A DNA stretch of 64,000 nucleotides, taken from contig NZ_JANHDK010000002.1 of the NCBI RefSeq assembly GCF_024494725.1, forward strand, positions 186,001 through 250,000, given 5' to 3'. Shown one piece after another: positions 40,832 through 46,358 of this stretch. The translations under genes and the position numbers were made by a program. Position 1 is the stretch's first letter. Each line of letters begins with the position of its first letter. This DNA comes from Haloplanus ruber (lineage in GTDB: Archaea > Halobacteriota > Halobacteria > Halobacteriales > Haloferacaceae). Below the pieces are notes generated by a model. It had not been told where the DNA came from and did not search any database. It saw nothing but the letters and a program-made list of their open reading frames with translations.

Positions 40832-40912
40832 ATGGCACGGAAACCTCAAAACGCGAACGTCTGTCCAAGCACTGATCACGAAGCACCGTCCGCGGAGGAA
40901 GCCGAATGCTGA
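40832..40912 (+). CDS. Micro-ORF overlapping the amt start (possible coupling peptide)
   Basis: A 26-codon [21 protein letters not shown] then PSAEEAEC, stop TGA at 40910-40912. GGAG lies about 8 bp before its ATG (40821-40824), and its stop overlaps the amt ATG at 40906 (ATGCTGA). A GGAGG stretch inside its end would serve the amt start. Translation of the small ORF would deliver ribosomes to amt. Seen directly; function is inference. No homology recognised. Confidence 0.45.
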
Positions 40913-42582
40913 CGCCGCTGCAGGTTGACCCCTCGGCGTTGGCGTCCGGCGTCAACAACGTCTGGGTGTTGACCGTCACCTTCCTGATTTTCTTCATGCA
41001 CGCTGGCTTCGCCATGCTGGAGGCGGGGCAGGTACGCTCGAAGAACGTCGCCAACCAGTTGACGAAGAACATGCTGACCTGGAGTATCGGCGTCATCGTC
41101 TACTTCCTGATCGGCGCCGCTGTCTCAGGGATGGTCGGCGGAGCTGCCAGTCCGTTCGGCTACATCGCCGGTGGCTCCGATGCGTGGATCGGCTGGCTGT
41201 TCGGCGCGGTGTTCGCCATGACGGCGGCGACCATCGTCAGCGGGGCCGTCGCCGGCCGCGCAAAGCTCCGTGCGTACGTCACGTACACGGTGTTGCTATC
41301 GGCGGTCATCTACCCCGTCGTGACGGGCCTGACGTGGGGGGGCGGCTACCTCTCGTCGGTGCTCGGCGTCGGGTTCAGTGATTTCGCGGGCGGCATGATC
41401 GTCCACGGAATGGGCGGCGTCGCCGGGCTCACGGCGGCGTGGGTCCTCGGCCCGCGGATGGATCGCTACAACGAAGACGGAAGCGCGAACGTCATCCCCG
41501 GTCACTCGATGACCTTCGCCGTACTGGGGACGCTCATCCTCTGTTTCGGCTGGTACGGCTTCAACGTCGGCACGGCGGCGACGGTGTTCGTCGTCGAGGA
41601 AGGCTCCGTCGCGCTGGGCTCGTTCGCCGAAACCGTCGGCCGCGTGGCGCTGACGACGACGCTCGCGATGGGTGCAGGCGCCATCGGGGCTGCCGGCGTC
41701 TCGCTGCTCCAGACGAAGAAAGTCGACACGCTGTACGTCGCCAACGGGATGCTCGCCGGTCTCGTCGGCATCACGAGCATCACCAACCTGTCGACGTGGT
41801 GGGGCGCCCTGCTGGTCGGCCTGCTGGCCGGCGGTCAGCTCCCCCTCGTCTTCAAATTCGTCGAGCGGAAGCTCAAGATCGACGACGTCTGTGCGGTCTA
41901 CCCCGTTCACGGGAGCGCCGGCGCTCTCGGTGCGGTGCTGCTGCCGTTCGTCTCCATCAACGGCTTCTCGACGCAGGTGCTGCTGGCACAGATCGTCAGC
42001 GTCACCGTCATCGGCGCCTGGACCATCGTCGCGACCGCGGTGGTGTTCGGTGCCCTGAAGGCCATCGGTCAGGCTCGCGTCGACCCCTCCCACGAGCGTG
42101 AGGGCCTTGACGTCGCCGAACACGGTGTCGACACCTACCCCGAGTTCGGCGACCAGCCCGACGCGGTGCCGGACGGCGGCGAGGACCTCCGGACCGACGG
42201 CGGCACGGAGATTCGGACCGACGGCGGCGAGGCCGAACGCGACATCAAGATGGTCACCGCCATCCTCCGCCCGGAGATGCTGGGCGACGTGAAACAGGCC
42301 ATCGCCGAGGTGGGCGCCCCCTCGATCACCGTGACGAACGTCTCCGGCCGCGGCTCCCAGCCCGCCAAGAAGGGCCAGTGGCGCGGCGAGGAGTACACCG
42401 TCGACCTCCACCAGAAGGTGAAAGTCGAGTGCGTGGTCGCGGACGTGCCCGCGGCGGACGTCGCGGAGGCGATCCGCGAGAGCGCGAACACGGGCGAACC
42501 CGGCGACGGCAAAATCTTCATCCTGCCCGTCGACAATGCGGTCCAGGTCCGGACCGGCAAGGAGGGTCCCGACGCGGTCTGA
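40906..42582 (+). CDS. amt: Ammonium transporter Amt fused to a P-II (GlnB/GlnK) domain
   Basis: A 558-residue fusion. Residues 1 to about 395 are the Amt channel, with about 11 spans, the [16 protein letters not shown] segment, the twin-His pore region (HGMGGVAG and [11 protein letters not shown]), and [10 protein letters not shown] linker rich in Asp/Gly follows (about 395-445), then a complete P-II domain from about residue 446 ([14 protein letters not shown]) to the end, with T-loop [19 protein letters not shown] containing the tyrosine, and [17 protein letters not shown] normally caps Amt in response to 2-oxoglutarate and ATP/ADP. Here the regulator is covalently attached. No separate glnK follows; hemL is next. 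Confidence 0.92.
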
Positions 42583-42731: not shown

Positions 42732-44066
42732 ATGACCCACGAGAACTCGCGGGAGCTGTACGACCGGGCGCTGTCGGTCCTGCCCGGCGGCGTCAACTCG
42801 TCGGTGCGGGCGACGATGCCGTATCCCTTCTTCGTCGAGGACGGCGACGGCGCACACGTCGTCGACGCCGACGGCAACCGCTATCTCGACTACGTGATGG
42901 GCTATGGCCCGTTGCTGTACGGCCACGACCTCCCCGACTCCGTCGAGGCGGCGATCCAGTCACACGCCAGCGCCGGGCCGATGTACGGTGCGCCCACCGA
43001 GGTGGAGGTCGAACTCGCGGAGTTCGTGGCCCGACACGTCCCCTCCGTGGAGATGCTTCGGTTCGTCAACTCGGGGACCGAGGCGACGGTCTCCGCGGTT
43101 CGTCTCGCCAGAGCCTACACCGGGCGGGACAAAATCGTCGTCATGCAGGGTGGCTACCACGGCGCCCAGGAGTCGACGCTCGTCGAGGGCGACCCCGAGG
43201 GCGCCGTGCCCTCCTCTCCGGGCATTCCGGACAGCTTCGCCGAACATACGATCCCCGTGCCGTTCAACGACACCGACACCGTCGCCGACGTGTTCGAAGC
43301 CCACGGCGACGACATCGCGGCCGTCCTCACGGAACCCATGCTGGGCAACATGGGCGTGGTCATGCCGGTCGACGGCTTCCACGAGTCGCTGCGCGACCTG
43401 TGTGACGAGTACGGCTCACTGTTGATCTTCGACGAGGTCATCACGGGGTTCCGGGTCGGCGGCCTCGGCTGTGCACAGAGCGAGTTCGGCGTCACGCCCG
43501 ACCTGACGACGCTCGGCAAAATCGTCGGCGGCGGCTTCCCGGTCGGCGCCGTCGGCGGCCGCGCCGAAATCGTCGAACACCTCACGCCCGGCGGCGACGT
43601 GTTCCAGTCGGGCACCTTCTCGGGCCACCCCGTGACGATGGCCGCCGGTCTGGAGACCCTGCGGTACGCCGCCGAGAACGACGTCTACGACCACGTGAAC
43701 GGGCTCGGCGAGCAGTTGCGCGCGGGAATTACCGATATCCTCGAGGAGCGGGCGCCGGAGTACACCGTCGTCGGCACCGGCAGCATCTTCAAGACCATCT
43801 TCACCCGCGAAGGCCGTGGCGGCGAGGATCGGTGTGAGGCCGGCTGTCGTCAGCGTACGGACTGCCCGAACTACGACGCCTGTCCCAAGACGGGGGCGGA
43901 CGTCGCCGCGGCCGAGACCAACCGCTGGGAGCGAGTGTTCTGGCAGGAGATGAAAGAGCGCGGAATCTTCCTCACCGCCAACCAGTACGAGGCACAGTTC
44001 GTCAGCTACGCCCACACGGAGGCAGACGTCCAGCGGACCCTAGACGCGTACCAGGAGACGCTGTAG
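42732..44066 (+). CDS. hemL: Glutamate-1-semialdehyde 2,1-aminomutase
   Basis: A 444-residue PLP enzyme that makes 5-aminolevulinate. Start [23 protein letters not shown], then [30 protein letters not shown] and the PLP lysine in [18 protein letters not shown]. Unlike bacterial HemL it carries an extra Cys-rich segment near residues 365-385, C368-x3-C372-x5-C378-x4-C383, between the IFKTIFT strand and the TNRWERVFW helix. The motif could bind a metal or Fe-S cluster; the family normally does not. ATG at 42732 chosen over a longer frame that is Pro/Arg-rich. Confidence 0.95.
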
Positions 44067-44067
44067 A

Positions 44068-45183
44068 CTACCCGTCCGCGTCCCCCTGGCCGTTCTCGTC
44101 TTCGTTGCGCTCGTGGTAGGGCGGCACGAACACGTCCGCCTCGACCATCTTCTCGATCTGTCGCTCGGTCACCTCCTCGGCGTAGGTGTCGTGATCGACG
44201 GGCTGACGGTCGAGCCACAGGTTCTTCGGGTAGATCTCCCGGTCGTAGATGGGGCGGATCAACTCGGTCCGGAGGTCCTTGATCCAGTTGGTCAGCGGCG
44301 ACGAGGTGCGGTGTTCGCGCAGTCCCTCCACGTCGATTGGCGCGGCACAGTACGACGACCCGGCACCGTAGGCGTGTTCGGCGAGGATCTCTCCACGGTG
44401 GTCGACGATCATCGACCCGCCGCCGAAGGTGTCGACCGGCGTGTCGGCGTCGGGAGAGACGTAGTACGTTCCCAGATTGGGCGCGACGACGTAGCAGGTG
44501 TTGTCGAGGGCGCGGGCGCGGTTCTGGATCTCCCAGCTATCGTTCGCCACGAGGGGTTCGGGGCAGGCGATCCGGCAGATCACCTCGGCGCCGTTCATCG
44601 CGAGACCGCGGACGTACTCGGGGTAGGCACCCTCGATGGCGAGCGAGATGCCGATGCGACCGATGTCGGTGTCGACGACGGGGAAGATGTCGTCCAGGTC
44701 GTCGCCGTGGTGGTCGGTCCAGTCGTCCCACACGTCGTGAGGGGAGACCGAGCGCTCGACGGGAAGCAAGGGGGTCACCTTCCGGTGGGTGTGGATCACG
44801 TCGCCGTCGGGGTCGATGACGAAGGCGGTGTTGTAGAACTTCTCGTCGTACTCCGGGGCCTTCTCCTTGGCCGAGGCGACGATGTAGGTGTCGAACTCCT
44901 TTGCGTACTCGCCGAGGGTCTCGGTCTCTGGGCCGGGAATCTCGACCGCAATCTCCTCGCGGTAGGTCGCGTGATCCATGTCGAACACCTCGTCGGTGAA
45001 CCCCTGGAGTGCGCCCTCGGGGAGGACGGCGAGGCGGACGGGGAGTTCGAGGCCGCTGAGCCACGTGGCCGCCGAGAGCGCCTCGTGAATGTGCTCTAAG
45101 TTCTGCTCGATGTCGCTCCGTTCGTTGGCTCCCCACACGGTCGGGGAGAGGCCGACAGCGTTGTACTGCGGAATCTTCGACAT
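44068..45183 (-). CDS. Nitrilase-family homologue lacking the catalytic cysteine
   Basis: A 371-residue CN-hydrolase-fold protein, starting MSKIPQYNAVGLSPTVWGAN. The Glu (LPEGALQG, Glu56) and Lys (HRKVTPLLPVE, Lys135) of the Glu-Lys-Cys triad are present. In the third motif, usually I-C-(Y/D)-(E/D)-x-x-(Y/F)-P-E, the sequence is LAIEGAYPE, with Ala182 where Cys belongs (codon at 44638-44640, GCC). The following GAEVICR resembles aliphatic amidases. So canonical amidase or nitrilase chemistry seems unlikely. It lies convergently between hemL (1 bp gap) and divergently from hemC. Another cysteine (203 or 207) might stand in, but that is speculative. Confidence 0.8.
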   Translation of the reverse strand: MSKIPQYNAVGLSPTVWGANERSDIEQNLEHIHEALSAATWLSGLELPVRLAVLPEGALQGFTDEVFDMDHATYREEIAVEIPGPETETLGEYAKEFDTYIVASAKEKAPEYDEKFYNTAFVIDPDGDVIHTHRKVTPLLPVERSVSPHDVWDDWTDHHGDDLDDIFPVVDTDIGRIGISLAIEGAYPEYVRGLAMNGAEVICRIACPEPLVANDSWEIQNRARALDNTCYVVAPNLGTYYVSPDADTPVDTFGGGSMIVDHRGEILAEHAYGAGSSYCAAPIDVEGLREHRTSSPLTNWIKDLRTELIRPIYDREIYPKNLWLDRQPVDHDTYAEEVTERQIEKMVEADVFVPPYHERNEDENGQGDADG

Positions 45184-45272
45184 GCGTCGGGGGGTCTCGG
45201 GTCCGACGGATATCGTTTGTGCCGGCGGCGGGAACTGGTGGGCTTTTCACCCTCGGGAGCGACCGAACGGAC

Positions 45273-46358
45273 ATGAACACAGGCGGGACCATCCGGCTAG
45301 CGACACGCGGGTCCGACCTCGCCCGCCGACAGACGGCGAGCGTCCGCGACCGCCTCGACGGGCGGCGTCGCACCGTCGAGACGGTGACGGTGTCGACTCG
45401 CGGCGACGAGATCAGGGACGAACTCATCCACCGCCTCGGCAAGACGGGGGCGTTCGCTCGCGCGCTCGACGAACAGGTGCTCGACGGCGACGTCGACGCC
45501 GCGGTCCACTCGATGAAGGACATGCCCACGGAGTCGCCGCCGGAACTCGTGGTCGCCGGCGTGCCGGAGCGTGCCCCCGCAGGGGACGTACTCGTGACCC
45601 CCGACGGCACGGACGTAGCGGGCCTCTCCGAGGGCGCGGTGGTCGGTACCTCGTCGCTCCGGCGCGGCGCCCAACTGCGCCGCGAGCGGCCGGATCTGGA
45701 GGTGGTGCCGCTCCGAGGCAACGTCGACACCCGACTGGAGAAACTCCTCGCACCGACCCTCCAGCGCGAACACCAGCGACGGCTTGACGCCGAAGACGAG
45801 GACGAGGGAGAGCATCCGGACGCCTTCGACCAGTCCGCCGAGGCGTGGTTCGACGACCTCTCGGAACTGGAACGGCAGGCGATGGAGCGAAGCGTCGACC
45901 ACGAGTACGATGCAATCGTCCTCGCGGAGGCAGGGCTGGAGCGAAGCGGGCTACTGGGGACCGTCGAGACGACTCGGTTACCGAAGGCGCGGTTCGTCCC
46001 CGCGCCGGGCCAGGGCGCCATCGCGGTGACGGCGCTCGCGGAGGGCGAGGCGACGGCGACGATCAACGACCGGGTGGACGATCCGGTGACCCGCGTCGAG
46101 ACGACCGTCGAGCGGACGGTGCTCGCGGAACTCGGCGGCGGCTGTATCGCCCCAATTGGCGTCCACGCCGTCGTGCAAGGGGAGTACGTCCACGTGACCG
46201 TGCAGGTGCTCTCGCTCGACGGCGAGGAGGCAGTCGAGCGAAGCGCCGACCTGCCGGTCACGGACCACGCGGACGCGGCGGCGTCGCTGGCCGCCGAACT
46301 ACGCGAGGCGGGGGCCGCCGATCTGATCGAGCGCGCCCGAACGGAGGCCGAGGAGTGA
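45273..46358 (+). CDS. hemC: Hydroxymethylbilane synthase (porphobilinogen deaminase)
   Basis: A 361-residue enzyme that joins four porphobilinogens to hydroxymethylbilane. It starts MNTGGTIRLATRGSDLARRQ, contains VDAAVHSMKDMP, GTSSLRRGAQL, PLRGNVDTRL, PAPGQGAIAV, and the dipyrromethane cysteine in LGGGCIAPIGVHA. A 30-residue Asp/Glu-rich insert (AEDEDEGEHPDAFDQ) is the halophilic touch. Start at 45273. Its stop overlaps the GTG start of hemD (GTGA). Confidence 0.95.
   Translation: MNTGGTIRLATRGSDLARRQTASVRDRLDGRRRTVETVTVSTRGDEIRDELIHRLGKTGAFARALDEQVLDGDVDAAVHSMKDMPTESPPELVVAGVPERAPAGDVLVTPDGTDVAGLSEGAVVGTSSLRRGAQLRRERPDLEVVPLRGNVDTRLEKLLAPTLQREHQRRLDAEDEDEGEHPDAFDQSAEAWFDDLSELERQAMERSVDHEYDAIVLAEAGLERSGLLGTVETTRLPKARFVPAPGQGAIAVTALAEGEATATINDRVDDPVTRVETTVERTVLAELGGGCIAPIGVHAVVQGEYVHVTVQVLSLDGEEAVERSADLPVTDHADAAASLAAELREAGAADLIERARTEAEE

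Follow-up and report, generated by a model that had tools for sequence, protein, structure and literature searches.

A mobile, cysteine-less branch of the nitrilase superfamily with a representative between hemL and hemC of Haloplanus ruber

The nitrilase-fold protein P0001, encoded between hemL and hemC in a 64,000-nucleotide stretch of the Haloplanus ruber genome (the window), belongs to a real, widespread and mobile branch of the nitrilase superfamily that lacks the catalytic cysteine. This confirms the central observation of a preliminary description of the same DNA, in which the Glu and Lys of the catalytic triad had been seen to be kept, with Ala182 at the Cys position; the placement of the gene between hemL and hemC had likewise been read correctly (Table 1).

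Table 1. Features of the P0001 locus, with positions counted from the first letter of the window
Feature	Position	Strand	Basis
Cys-less nitrilase-fold protein P0001, 371 aa	44068–45183	−	ORF, PF00795 match, predicted model
Codon of Ala182 (GCC), catalytic-Cys position	44638–44640	−	formamidase alignment; Ala in 40/40 clade rows
Codon of Glu56, first catalytic Glu, kept	45016–45018	−	formamidase alignment; 40/40 rows
Codon of Lys135, catalytic Lys, kept	44779–44781	−	formamidase alignment; 40/40 rows
Codon of Glu143, second Glu of the C-E-E-K tetrad, kept	44755–44757	−	formamidase alignment; 40/40 rows
hemL, neighbour, not functionally linked	42732–44066	+	name from the preliminary description, not from a family scan
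hemC, neighbour, not functionally linked	45273–46358	+	name from the preliminary description, not from a family scan
1,173-base insertion with this gene alone inside, from hemL stop to hemC leader	44067–45239	.	comparison with gene-less congeners

The Gene Product and Its Fold

The open reading frame starts with ATG at position 45183 and ends with the stop codon at 44070–44068 on the minus strand. Its product is placed in the superfamily by a match to the PF00795 CN_hydrolase profile (123.6 bits, E 1.1e-35; cut-off 23.2 bits), and its closest solved sequence relatives are formamidases (5g3o, 1.5e-20; 2e2k, 2.6e-20; 2dyu, 3.6e-20). None of the NCBIfam cut-offs is passed by the protein, the formamidase model scoring 82.3 bits against a cut-off of 406 and the aliphatic amidase model 57.8 bits against 427. 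An AlphaFold model built with 13 aligned sequences (pLDDT 65, pTM 0.73; an earlier 7-sequence model reached pLDDT 50) supports the nitrilase fold, with formamidases as the best Foldseek matches (E 6.5e-19) and a VIA Z of 23.4 to formamidase; with active-site loops at pLDDT <50, its resolution suffices for the fold rather than for active-site geometry. The rest of the source genome contains just two weak matches to P0001, at 32–35% identity.

Among characterized enzymes, the formamidase AmiF (H. pylori 2dyu, B. cereus 5g3o) is the best match in both sequence and fold and possesses counterparts of Glu56, Lys135 and Glu143. P0001 differs from it by Ala182 in place of the catalytic Cys, by extra residues between 143 and 168 in the alignment, and by an overall identity of about 26% over the aligned fold. 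The aliphatic amidase AmiE (2uxy; Geobacillus pallidus 2plq) also shares the fold (Z 23.2), but again P0001 is without the Cys. In public records, the proteins of the clade are labelled “nitrilase-related carbon-nitrogen hydrolase”, a function which, considering Ala182, appears doubtful.

Active-Site Residues

The formamidase alignment sets Ala182 onto the catalytic Cys of 2dyu, with “rigislAiegaypey” of P0001 over “klavciChdgmipel”. At the same letter, the mutant formamidase chain 2e2k has Ser (“klavciShdg”), and because 2dyu and 2e2k differ at exactly this letter, Ala182 occupies the nucleophile position. The triad Glu and Lys have their counterparts in Glu56 and Lys135, and Glu143 matches the second glutamate (“rklnpwvpvE”). 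According to the available text of PMC10781810, a Cys nucleophile defines the C-E-K triad of the catalytic C-N hydrolases of this superfamily; P0001 and all 40 rows of its clade have Ala instead. The C-E-E-K tetrad and the roles of its two glutamates have been described in relatives, as far as a reference title in PMC10781810 and the accessible part of PMC4812014 indicate.

Throughout the 40 Ala-type rows, E56, H133, K135, E143, S145, H149, D150 and R204 are invariant, as are Thr172 and Ser257. Ten near relatives with Cys keep Glu56, Lys135, Glu143, Asp150 and Arg204, and His133 is found in only 3/10 of them. A second Cys-less branch (L013, L072–L075, L079, L080; seven rows) has Ser at the nucleophile position, Arg replacing Lys135, and no Glu143. 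There, loss of the nucleophile was accompanied by loss of other site residues, so that retention of Glu-Lys-Glu in the Ala clade is not automatic. Yet another nitrilase-like protein (L076, the same gene as L037), from a genome with 10 family matches (G396), has Gly at this position.

Single Origin and Purifying Selection

In a 58-row tree, computed with the trait column 182 left out, the 40 Ala rows stand on one side of a branch (support 98/94; 98% of bootstrap trees), with the Cys protein L020 and a Cys clade outside. This tree shows one ancestral Cys-to-Ala change and, hence, a single-origin Cys-less branch on the formamidase/aliphatic-amidase side of the superfamily. An earlier 63-row tree, which kept the trait column and held no phage rows, needed two changes for Ala and left forks in the Ala core unresolved. 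Before the 58-row tree and the count of 40, several rows were dropped: the seven Ser-type rows; L014, L044 and L078 (Cys, distant); L061 (Ala with Glu56 not kept; distant, on a long branch in the 63-row tree); the fragments L058, L059/L063 and L060, of which L058 and L059 have Ala and L060 ends short of the site; the duplicates L037 and L040 (same genes as L076 and L077) and L111 (identical to L007); and the frameshifted L129. The Flammeovirga row L117, whose branch is long and whose residue 184 is Gly, was counted among the 40.

The dN/dS ratio amounts to 0.03–0.10 in seven haloarchaeal pairs and 0.15–0.30 in four phage pairs. Ala182 is not a chance state, being shared by 40/40 rows of a single clade on which purifying selection is strong. 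The missing Cys could by itself speak for a single decayed gene, as the preliminary description had considered in case most homologues had Cys; since Ala extends across the whole clade and dN/dS is about 0.1 or less, this reading is rejected as next to impossible. The expectation of a non-decayed Cys-less protein, be it a pseudo-enzyme or an unusual enzyme, was thereby borne out.

Distribution

Members of the Ala clade come from haloarchaea and Caldarchaeum-type archaea, from several groups of bacteria, and from plasmids and phage contigs. Within its own class, 11/391 genomes match at 1e-40, the source genome included; as one of these (G207) carries just two distant paralogues, orthologues are present in nine other genomes, with 76–95% identity. 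In the Caldarchaeum-type phylum, 8/300 genomes match at 1e-25; four Caldarchaeum/Pelearchaeum-type genomes carry an Ala-type gene and the remaining four matches are distant and have Cys. In the phylum of G395, 17/251 genomes match (15 with Ala, one fragment short of the site, one distant), and in the class of G396, 10/190, one of them (L067) with the clade's Ala and the others with Cys, Ser or Gly.

On plasmids, 12 records matched, of which 11 were read (H10 left out): six copies have Ala (Natrinema, Halorientalis, two Haladaptatus, Tsukamurella, Flammeovirga) and five have Cys, the Halorientalis copy being the same sequence as L007 from G058. IMG/VR contributed eight contigs with a homologue, seven intact with Ala and one frameshifted (L129). 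Viral-contig scans with three single proteins as queries yielded no relatives, and the phage-borne copy found no match in the INPHARED phage collection. Literature titles and abstract beginnings, mostly of non-subscription papers, contained no natural Cys-less nitrilase.

The hemL–hemC Locus

Within the genus, the gene is present in 5/12 genomes and, in all five, divergent from hemC at a distance of 89–119 bp. In 4/4 inspected of the seven gene-less congeners, hemL and hemC are adjacent and nearly touching, and the hemL stop runs straight into a leader; three of the four have a GGGCTTTTCACC-like one. In the window this leader starts at 45240, which delimits the inserted piece given in Table 1. 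Two gene-bearing congeners harbour an AbrB-like/PIN-like pair in this gap (L021 8623–9315, L022 10148–10834) and another genus an RHH/PIN-like pair (L109 2193–2851), all named by appearance; such small toxin-antitoxin-like pairs indicate that the gap accepts insertions and is a hotspot for them. Upstream of hemL, the window encodes a 558-aa ORF (40906–42582) which by appearance is an ammonium transporter with a PII-like C-terminal part, and such an ORF is also present at the three other hem-linked loci read. One congener possesses a second hemC-like gene with 60% identity (G280:C1:1207545-1208660).

Adjacency to hemC in 5/5 gene-bearing genomes of the genus would fit a role in tetrapyrrole supply, which the preliminary description had suggested on account of position. 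Against this stand the clean insertion, absent from all four inspected gene-less congeners, and the missing hem neighbour at nine haloarchaeal loci outside the genus; hem synteny is, thus, not conserved, an outcome that had been named beforehand as telling against the link, and a gene of the hem cluster is a highly improbable reading. The P0001 gene was inserted between hemL and hemC, and we infer that it has no part in heme synthesis, its placement being happenstance.

Neighbours Elsewhere

Genes of HAAT-type ABC transporters adjoin the gene in 3/4 Caldarchaeum-type loci, where it lies directly upstream of a HAAT binding-protein gene (L015, L016) or, with 3 bp between, upstream of four HAAT transporter genes (L017). 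Of the nine haloarchaeal loci outside the genus, those of G159, G118 and Natrinema have HAAT permease genes within 5 kb, that of Haladaptatus salinisoli has them within 10 kb, and the other five have none. With a background of 2–5 LivH homologues in each of six haloarchaeal genomes, the chance of such linkage is ~1–2% per locus by our own arithmetic, in which the genomes of two of the four linked loci were not counted. The HAAT binding proteins of G159, G118 and Natrinema are orthologous (56% identical to that of Natrinema); at 1e-20 these proteins have no match in the window genome, G280, G297, G133 or G215, and only a 27% match in G058. Phosphoglycerate dehydrogenase is encoded near all three of these HAAT-linked haloarchaeal copies and tryptophan synthase beta near two; the Natrinema representatives of both pass NCBIfam cut-offs, while names for the rest come from similarity or appearance. 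A partial tryptophan-dioxygenase-like neighbour in L094 scores 176 bits against a cut-off of 391.

In the other bacterial copies, recurrent neighbours are confined to near-identical loci. Molybdenum hydroxylase genes lie beside two bacterial copies and at 3–6 kb in L015, amidohydrolase genes near three copies, M20 peptidases near three, and an NCS1 permease beside one; all of these are common genes taken without a background count, and we give them no weight as hints. In all eight phage contigs (L122–L129), the gene is opposite in strand to its neighbours and located between portal and scaffolding genes, as called by PHROG matches for L124 and by similarity to L124 for the other contigs.

Proposed Function and Alternatives

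P0001 is regarded here as a mobile, stand-alone protein of the Cys-less branch and, at roughly even chances, as a functional enzyme repurposed for non-covalent work. In the absence of the Cys sulfur, no thioester would be formed; the kept Glu-Lys-Glu site could still accommodate an amide-like group. A small nitrogen compound taken up by the cell, resembling an amide, a ureide or an amino acid, would be bound by Glu56, Glu143 and Lys135, which would carry out acid–base chemistry on it or add water to it directly where the sulfur is missing. The HAAT-type transporter neighbours hint at an imported amino-acid- or amide-type compound as substrate; against this hint, the window genome lacks the transporter to which the gene is linked in three haloarchaea. 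More tentatively, the Glu-Lys-Glu residues and the invariant His133 may run a non-covalent reaction, possibly new to the nitrilase fold, across archaea, bacteria and phages, with import of an amide- or indole-like compound hinted at by the nearby HAAT transporter in three haloarchaea and by tryptophan synthase beta in two of the three. Loss of Cys together with changed chemistry would have an analogy in an unrelated fold: isochorismatases such as PhzD stand beside Asp-Lys-Cys amidases in an amidase-type superfamily, some members of which dropped Cys and changed their chemistry. Vinyl ethers, amides and lactams are the substrates of that family, as stated in the available text of PMC4519933.

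The main rival, which we consider somewhat unlikely, is a binding-only pseudoenzyme, i.e., a natural substrate trap that binds a small amide or amine and serves the cell as a sensor, a carrier or a regulator. Relatives with an engineered Cys-to-Ala or Cys-to-Ser change have been crystallised with ligand, to go by the titles of 6ypa (C146A) and 8hpc (C171A) and the available text on MtCPA-C158S (PMC4812014), which suggests binding without turnover; in 6ypa and 8hpc, the change was engineered, while it is the natural state of the clade. The retention of all remaining tetrad residues and the transporter linkage would suit a trap as well. A conserved signal-receiving partner was not found, however, as neighbours vary between the genus, plasmids, phages and bacterial chromosomes, and Lys135, whose AmiF counterpart stabilises the tetrahedral state according to the accessible part of PMC10781810, is kept in 40/40 rows. 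An enzyme is preferred over a binding protein because the gene spreads alone without such a partner and because the charge-stabilising Lys is invariant; portability without a fixed partner is evident from the plasmid copies, the eight phage contigs and the hemL–hemC insertion.

Less probable still is an ordinary amidase that employs another nucleophile, either Cys203 or Cys207, as the preliminary description had proposed, or an invariant Ser, Thr, Tyr or Asp. The two cysteines are essentially haloarchaeal and fail as candidates, with position 203 being Tyr in 26 and Cys in 14 of the 40 Ala-type rows and position 207 Tyr in 22, Cys in 13 and other residues in the rest. Ser145, Thr172, Ser257 and Asp150 are invariant in the clade, but Thr172 and Asp150 are also present in the 10 Cys relatives (Thr in nine and Ser in one; Asp in all 10) and, therefore, did not arise as replacements. 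The position of the gene on the opposite strand between portal and scaffolding genes in 8/8 phage contigs would favour lysogenic-conversion or host-benefit cargo for which mobile elements are selected (defence, exclusion, or removal of a single toxic amide), and so would the Halorientalis plasmid, on which an AAA protein and a type I restriction system are encoded near the gene. This we rate as rather improbable, since several chromosomal and plasmid copies adjoin metabolic genes and PADLOC returned no match for P0001; on the latter ground, a known defence-system protein was rejected.

Implications for the Nitrilase Superfamily

Descriptions of the nitrilase superfamily rest on its Glu-Lys-Cys triad. 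The clade treated here lost the Cys once, kept the remainder of the site, and spread over two domains of life and into phages. Either the fold can do useful chemistry without covalent catalysis, or mobile DNA gains from carrying a natural substrate trap.
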